From Xiphias gladius (lineage: Eukaryota; Chordata; Actinopteri; Istiophoriformes; Xiphiidae): a DNA stretch of 64,000 nt. Of this stretch, positions 57,501 through 60,500 are shown piece after piece. The DNA is taken from assembly GCF_016859285.1 (NCBI RefSeq), contig NC_053420.1, positions 11,485,501 to 11,549,500 on the forward strand. The letters run 5' to 3'. Position 1 is the first letter of the stretch, and each line of letters starts with the position of its first letter. The position numbers and the translations under genes were made by a program. The notes beneath the pieces were generated by a model. That model was not told the DNA's origin. It saw only the letters and a list, made by a program, of their open reading frames with translations, and searched no databases.

Positions 57501-60500
57501 TCGCCGTCATCATACACACTCTCAGGATGGACCGGAGGCCGCAAACCGAGCGTGGGAGCAAAGAGTTGATATGAAATCACCGCAAACTTAGGAAAGCTGG
57601 ACACTTCTGACCCCGGTTTTACATGTGACTGCATTGCTGAGCCCTCCCATGCTTTAACACGTTGTAGAAACCCACACTGTTCATAGTAAACAACTGTTTC
57701 CAGTTCTTTCGGAGAACTAGGGCAAGTGTTAGTGGAGGCTTTTTGTGTATCGTTCTCCTTTTTGTTCTACACATACAGACCGCGTGCTTCTCCAGGACTA
57801 TCTGTAGAAACAGTCGCCTAGCACTAGCAGACATGAATGTCCTCCCAACCTCTGCAGTCCTGACTTAGAAAAAGAGATTTTAATTTTGCCCAGTTCTTTG
57901 AAAATGGTCAACCGAACCAGACGGGTCACATGTAAAAACTGTGATCTGAACTCACTCAGCTCAAATAGATCATGAACAGATCTATTTAGGGCCAGATTTC
58001 ACTAAAAACTATTAAAGAGCAAGCTATGCTGAGGGAGTGATTTTAATTTGGGCTTTAAATAGTCACATTTTGTCCATCAGATAATCATGCAGCATTGTTG
58101 TGAGTTTACAGTGACAGTTGTAGGTTTTTTTAAAGCATCTCACCAGCAAAAGGTCCTGAGAAGAGATCCTGACAGAGTAGGAAAAAGTGTCATCATCCTC
58201 ATCCTCTACAAACTGCTGGGGGTTAGCCGTCCACACTTTGATCTGAAGAAACAACAGCACAAACAATCAGGCCTGACAGCAGTGATTTAACGTACATATA
58301 TATGCTGTATTTTTTCCCAGTTCCTGACAGCAATTTCAACCTCATGTGTGGCAGTTATCTCTCACCTGGTCCTCAGTGATCTGCATGTACAGGATGATGT
58401 AGTAGATGAGTTCAGGCAGGGCTTTCTTCACTGTGCTCTTGAACTTGTTGTTCTCCAGCAGCGTGTGCACAAACTCAAAGATGCTGAACACAAGATTCTC
58501 AAAACCCAGAACCTCACCTGTAAAAAATAAGCAGTCAACACCAGGGGATAGCTGAGAAAAGTGTTCCTAAAATAAATTCGGTGCCCAATCGCTTCTTTCA
58601 AACTTGCTAGCCCTTGCTACATGCAGCAGTGAGACCAGATGTTAAGGGGGTGGGATTTCTGCTCACCATCTGAGTCTATCGGGTCATCCACCTCCTCTGT
58701 GTAGTTGACTTCTGTTCTTACATAAGTGAACATCAGGTTAAGGAATACTCAATTAAACAAGAAGCACTTGGATTGCCTTGTGTCGCGCCATAATCACAGC
58801 ATTAGTAGTTTCCCCATCAAGAATGCTAACAGATTTAATGACAGATGTTAACACAGCAACGCACACCAAAGTCTGATCAGATCATCTACTCTATATGGGC
58901 TGCCTGTGCTCTAAGTATGAAGTTTCTATTATTTATTGTTCTTCGGTGTCGTGTTCACAAGAAGAATCGGCTTCCTCATAAAGCCAATTAGGTCATTCAT
59001 TCGCAAAGACTTTCACACCAACATCAAGTCCTTGCTTTATCGTGTTCTCATGAACGCATCTACAGAGTCACAGAGGCCAGCATGACAACATAATGTCCCG
59101 CCACCACGACCTAAGAATCCTTGTAAGTCTCTGAGGCTTTCTGTTTCCCTGTTTTGGCTGTCATCACGCAGCTTCTCTGCATAAAATAAAACACTTTCCA
59201 CAGCCCATTGCAACACTTTCTCTAAACACGTGAAAGTGTTTCAGTTTTGCTGAGTAAGCAGGTGACTTCAATGTAACAGAATGCTGCAGTGAGGTGGATT
59301 AGAGGTTTAGAGAGGCAGCTCTGTAACCACAAGACCATGAGCTCAAACCATGATAAGTGTCCATCAGATGTTTGGGAAAAGCAGAATAGGAAGTCAAACC
59401 TCCAGTTAAGTTGTGTTCTTTCACACCAAAATGGAATCAACAATGCTTTTAGCACACATGAACAGCAATGGTCATAGCAGCAATGAACTAGCTAACACAC
59501 AGTTGTCTTTATAAAGGATATAAAGCTGCACTTTCAGTCAGTGTGTTCCACACGATGGGTAATATCTGCTGCATGGAGGACACCATGGGTTTGGGGAAGT
59601 TCTTTACCAACGCTGTCACTGCCTGGGAGACGAAAAAGCAGAAAAAAAATCCAAATTTAAAATCTTATTGTAGCTACAAGATATTTTCCTTTTTTAATAA
59701 CAATTACACTTCCCAGGTCCTTATTTCTTGAAAGAATATGTCTACTACCACCAGCTGTACACTGTAACAAACATCTACCATGTGCCATAATCACACTACA
59801 GCTCACAGACATATGTTAAATGACTGCCGACTTTACAGCGTCATATTTTGTGCATTTATATTTGAACAAAGATTTACTTTTCAGCCCTCTTTTCTAGACC
59901 ATGTCCAATTCTGGGAAAAAAAAATCTTCAGTAAATGATAAAACTGATTTTCAGACTCATTTACAGCGAAATGTACTACTGTATCTATTGAGGATATATA
60001 TATATATATTAACTTCACGACCCTTTGGTCTATACAGTCTCTCACCTTTAGGACTTCCATCTTAAGACCGCTGTCAGACGAGGGTCCATCAGGCATCTGC
60101 AGAGCCTGCACAAACGCTTCTGTAAACTGCTGCACCACAGGGAAAATCAACGCTTTGGCTGCACCCTAAACCCGCGCACACGCACACACAGACAGGGAGG
60201 TACAGTTACTATTAAAACACAGTATTGACAAGTTACTCATCCATGTATTTTTTCCTTTCTGTAAAAATGTAAATGTGATTCTGGAGTTAGTGCAACATGA
60301 GGATAATTTCACAAACACTGATTTAAATAAATCCCCAGCGTACTATCTGTTATGACTTTTGAGAAGTTATCTCTTTTAAACTTACTTATCAGCTGCAACT
60401 CAACCAGATGAACCATTTCCCACGTTACAAGAAGTTCAATCAATAGTAAAAATGTTCCATTATATAATTAATTCAGACTAAATCTATTATGCAGTTATTC

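Follow-up and report, generated by a model that had tools for sequence, protein, structure and literature searches.

The ipo9 locus and its introns

The window, G000:C21:11485501-11549500, is a 64,000-nt stretch of the Xiphias gladius assembly that carries on its minus strand the coding exons of ipo9, the gene for importin-9, from residue 55 to the C-terminus. These exons were placed by tblastn using a human importin-9 sequence as the query, of which region 271-374 was checked against a PDB chain. The exon(s) encoding residues 1-54 were not found in the window by tblastn; they may have diverged, or they may lie past the window end on the 62777-64000 side (minus strand). Two further open frames were noted near ipo9 on the minus strand, at 28447-30249 and 37176-37842. 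By the look of their sequence they are probably leiomodin-1 and shisa4, and with ipo9 beside them the arrangement resembles the human IPO9-SHISA4-LMOD1 neighbourhood. Scans of the window with Rfam (gathering threshold) and ARAGORN found nothing.

The ipo9 features considered here are as follows.

45551..62777, minus strand: ipo9 coding exons, residue 55 to C-terminus, with 22 introns between them (tblastn and join search; two introns by eye)
59522..59622, minus strand: exon upstream of the AT-AC intron, ending with an additional TT (tblastn and join search; match of the joined 104-residue sequence to 271-374 in the PDB chain Importin-9)
58726..59521, minus strand: intron, almost certainly U12-type, AT-AC, 796 nt, phase 2, interrupting the F304 codon (single 17/17 join among those tried)
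59513..59521, minus strand: putative U12-type 5′ splice site ATATCCTTT, 9/9 to consensus (sequence, motif score)
58737..58745, minus strand: putative U12-type branch site TTCCTTAAC, 9/9 to consensus (sequence, motif score)
58726..58727, minus strand: AC 3′ splice site, A58727 and C58726 (sequence)
58667..58725, minus strand: exon downstream of the AT-AC intron, starting with T and ending with an additional G (tblastn and join search)

A single junction outside the GT-AG pattern

At each of the 22 junctions, all donor/acceptor pairs that keep the human protein length were tried over a range that ran from ~18 nt within the exon cores to ~40 nt beyond them. For 19 of the 21 other junctions, the script found a GT-AG pair whose score equalled the best or fell short of it by one; in the intron at 61008-60635, GT-AG was one below the top and three non-GT-AG pairs scored one higher. 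At most of these 19 junctions other pairs tied with GT-AG, so that the edges could not be set from the protein sequence by itself. The introns at 56464-56046 and 47810-47184, left unresolved by the script, are GT-AG by eye. Thus, 21 of the 22 ipo9 introns in the window are GT-AG (19 by script and two by eye) and one is AT-AC. At the latter junction, only one of the length-keeping joins tried reached the top score of 17/17, and this pair was AT-AC.

On the minus strand, the sequence around this intron reads GCAGCTTT/ATATCCTTTATAAAG ... GAGTATTCCTTAACCTGATGTTCAC/TTATGTAAGAACAGAAGTCAAC, where slashes mark the exon edges. The last upstream base is T59522 and the first downstream base is T58725, giving the join GCT TT/T TAT GTA. 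The branch adenosine is probably A58738, or 58739; counted from A58738, the last intron base lies 12 bases on. The preliminary description had named the same donor, branch site, acceptor and exon base, and re-reading of the sequence confirmed all of their coordinates. Its exact-phase join (TT/T TAT) is borne out by the unique 17/17 restoration of the protein, and its distance of about 12 bases between branch adenosine and AC agrees with the count from A58738.

The 104 residues joined across this junction and the next exons align without gaps (E = 9.2e-60) to residues 271-374 of PDB chain 10sm_D (Importin-9, 1041 residues), which we take to be the human protein; the sequence over the join and beyond aligns to residues 300-341. 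When used as a query against the 690.8-Mb assembly, they gave three exon matches, all at this locus, among the six best candidates scored. The gene is apparently single-copy.

Strength of the splice signals

The splice signals were scored against the U12 consensus (donor [AG]TATCCTTT, branch TTCCTT[AG]A[CT]). The AT-AC intron matches it at 9/9 donor and 9/9 branch positions, compared with at most 6/9 and 7/9, respectively, for the 19 GT-AG ipo9 introns with correct edges. The pyrimidine fraction at -23 to -4 does not separate the two classes (0.65 for the AT-AC intron, 0.50-0.95 for the other ipo9 introns). Two GT-AG introns that were scored with edges misplaced by one or two bases are excluded from the 19; their pyrimidine fractions, 0.75 and 0.60, fall within this range.

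Taken singly, the U12 motifs occur in the window about as often as chance predicts. The donor motif with at most one mismatch occurs 29 times (four of these exact) against 22.5 expected, a count reached in 7 of 100 shuffles, and TTCCTTRAY-N8-14-AC occurs once against 1.36 expected, with at least one occurrence in 75 of 100 shuffles. Donor/branch pairings within 5 kb that score at least 8/9 on both motifs number 74, and the ipo9 intron is the only one with 9/9 on both. As a motif-only search for further U12 introns, such a scan was set aside, the 74 loose pairings being uninformative without protein support. The weight comes from the coincidence of both exact motifs with the protein-defined join. 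The chance of this coincidence is ~2e-10 from window frequencies, or 5.5e-8 with AT and AC given; both values are rough, as independence is assumed and the underlying counts (four donors, one branch site) include the ipo9 intron itself.

Minor-spliceosome components in the same genome

All four minor-spliceosome snRNAs gave full-length matches over the Rfam cut-off in this assembly. One match each was listed for U12 snRNA (125 bits), U11 (104.3 bits) and U4atac (98.6 bits), whereas U6atac gave one full-length match over the cut-off (131.4 bits) and one partial match below it. The full U6atac gene (L004, G000:C21:16430377-16430504) shares its contig with ipo9, from which it is ~4.9 Mb away; the partial U6atac-like copy (L005, G000:C1:30705447-30705530) is perhaps a pseudogene. 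For CCDC84/CENATAC, an AT-AN splicing factor, four exon matches over the Pfam cut-off were found on contig C19. Two of them contain stops, presumably through intron read-through.

In a complementarity search, run without a chance control, the donor TCCTTT proved complementary to AAAGGA in the U6atac (6 bases) and to AAAGGG in the U11 of this genome (6 bases, one G-U), and the branch TTCCTTA to TAAGGAA in its U12 snRNA (7 bases); another 6-base match was found elsewhere in U6atac (TTTATA). We assume that the AAAGGA, AAAGGG and TAAGGAA segments are those that pair with the intron.

Interpretation and alternative readings

On the evidence of the sequence, the intron at 58726..59521 is almost certainly a U12-dependent (minor-spliceosome) AT-AC intron of the apparently single-copy vertebrate ipo9 gene. 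This reading fits the donor, the branch site and the spacing between branch and acceptor, and also the findings that a single join among those tried restores the protein and that the genome encodes all four snRNAs of the minor spliceosome. An AT-AC intron could instead belong to the U2 type, with the major spliceosome taking it out. In human, 85 such major introns, AT-AC or of related subtypes, are reported (PMC8280824), and in zebrafish AT-AC ends are found in 0.02% of U2 introns (PMC7367187). Against this, donor and branch of the ipo9 intron are both exact U12 consensus sequences at a fitting spacing, which makes a U2-type intron highly improbable.

Two other readings involve GT-AG sites near the junction. 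When 16 GT donors (59610-59401) were combined with 12 AG acceptors (58860-58669), 14 pairs were in frame without a stop, so the intron might have slightly shifted GT-AG edges, AT-AC being read only because the importin-9 sequence was imposed on the join. However, all 14 pairs alter the conserved protein: 13 lose 8 to 40 residues, and one has a net gain of four together with a changed stretch, whereas the AT-AC join alone reaches 17/17. The probability left to a shifted GT-AG intron is close to nil. The same in-frame pairs, e.g. with donor GTGCAG at 59531, could instead compete with the U12 intron as an overlapping U2 pair and yield a second isoform. Such twintrons occur in vertebrates (PMC3564746), and this arrangement would be compatible with a U12-type intron; since the GT-AG alternatives remove or change conserved residues, it is very unlikely, though slightly less so than the other two. 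The claim of the preliminary description that a gene finder restricted to GT-AG would fail here holds for the sites examined, none of the 14 in-frame pairs giving the conserved protein. In this genome, a GT-AG-only gene model is expected to drop or alter conserved ipo9 residues.

As a U12-type intron, the ipo9 AT-AC intron would be recognized through pairing of ATATCCTTT with U11 and then with U6atac, U11 acting before U6atac. U12 would pair with TTCCTTAAC, leaving the branch adenosine bulged, and the AC ~12 bases past this adenosine would be used as the 3′ splice site. With the intron removed, the importin-9 frame would be restored, the join being in phase 2. We infer from these signals that the intron is indeed spliced in this way.

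Read-through of the intron leads to a stop within a few codons (TESAALYPL, then stop), with ~30% of the protein left. Owing to this early stop, full-length importin-9 should need minor splicing at this intron, and ipo9 expression would thus be dependent on the minor spliceosome, as far as can be judged from the gene sequence. A premature stop with junctions downstream leads to nonsense-mediated decay, which an intron-retaining ipo9 transcript, with its many downstream junctions, should meet.

Comparison with ipo5 and other AT-AC introns

The ipo9 AT-AC intron belongs to a known class of introns, of which it is an ordinary, routine example. It shares the ATATCCTTT donor, the TTCCTTAAC branch site, the short branch-to-acceptor distance and the AC end with the vertebrate U12-type AT-AC introns of IAOD/intronIC (PMC7367187), and no difference is apparent from what that paper gives of them. 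AT-AC introns had been called a small minority even among U12 introns; their share of 22% in zebrafish and 26% in human (PMC7367187, Table 2) makes them a minority, though hardly a tiny one.

Another importin gene has an intron of this kind. Human IPO5 intron 21 is a minor (U12-type) AT-AC intron that was chosen as a test case for cells depleted of CENATAC (PMC8280824). In the present genome, ipo5 contains a 146-nt AT-AC intron in phase 1 (L019:144-289, contig G000:C13; join by eye), which starts ATATCCTTTTTG after FYFHD plus one base. Like the ipo9 intron, it has the donor ATATCCTTT; its branch site is TTCCGTAAC (8/9), with AC nine bases after the second A of this site. The exon that follows reads GVRVAAAESM; starting at VRVAAAESM, it matches the importin-5 chain 6xte_A, residue 718 onward. 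Judging by where it falls in the protein, this intron appears to be the counterpart of human IPO5 intron 21. The two joins differ in position: that of ipo5 falls within the codon immediately preceding residue 718 (of 1096 in 6xte_A), and that of ipo9 within the codon for residue 304 (of 1041).

Significance

A search of the open-licence literature, with supplements and intron databases outside its scope, found nothing that links IPO9 to U12 or the minor spliceosome, and the main text of a zebrafish Zrsr2 paper (PMC9501576) contains neither 'ipo9' nor 'importin'. A single paper came up for IPO9 together with minor introns, and its title and the start of its abstract show it to be about FUS. Genes with AT-AN introns that are retained on CENATAC loss are reported to be enriched for nucleocytoplasmic transport (PMC8280824). 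It is conceivable, though we consider it unlikely, that the AT-AC minor introns of ipo9 and ipo5, at their unrelated positions, make the capacity for AT-AC splicing (CENATAC) a joint throttle on nuclear import, that of histones by importin-9 included, with retention of the ipo9 intron acting as a regulated off-switch. With ipo9, the genes that are expected to react to defects of the minor spliceosome come to include a further importin gene.
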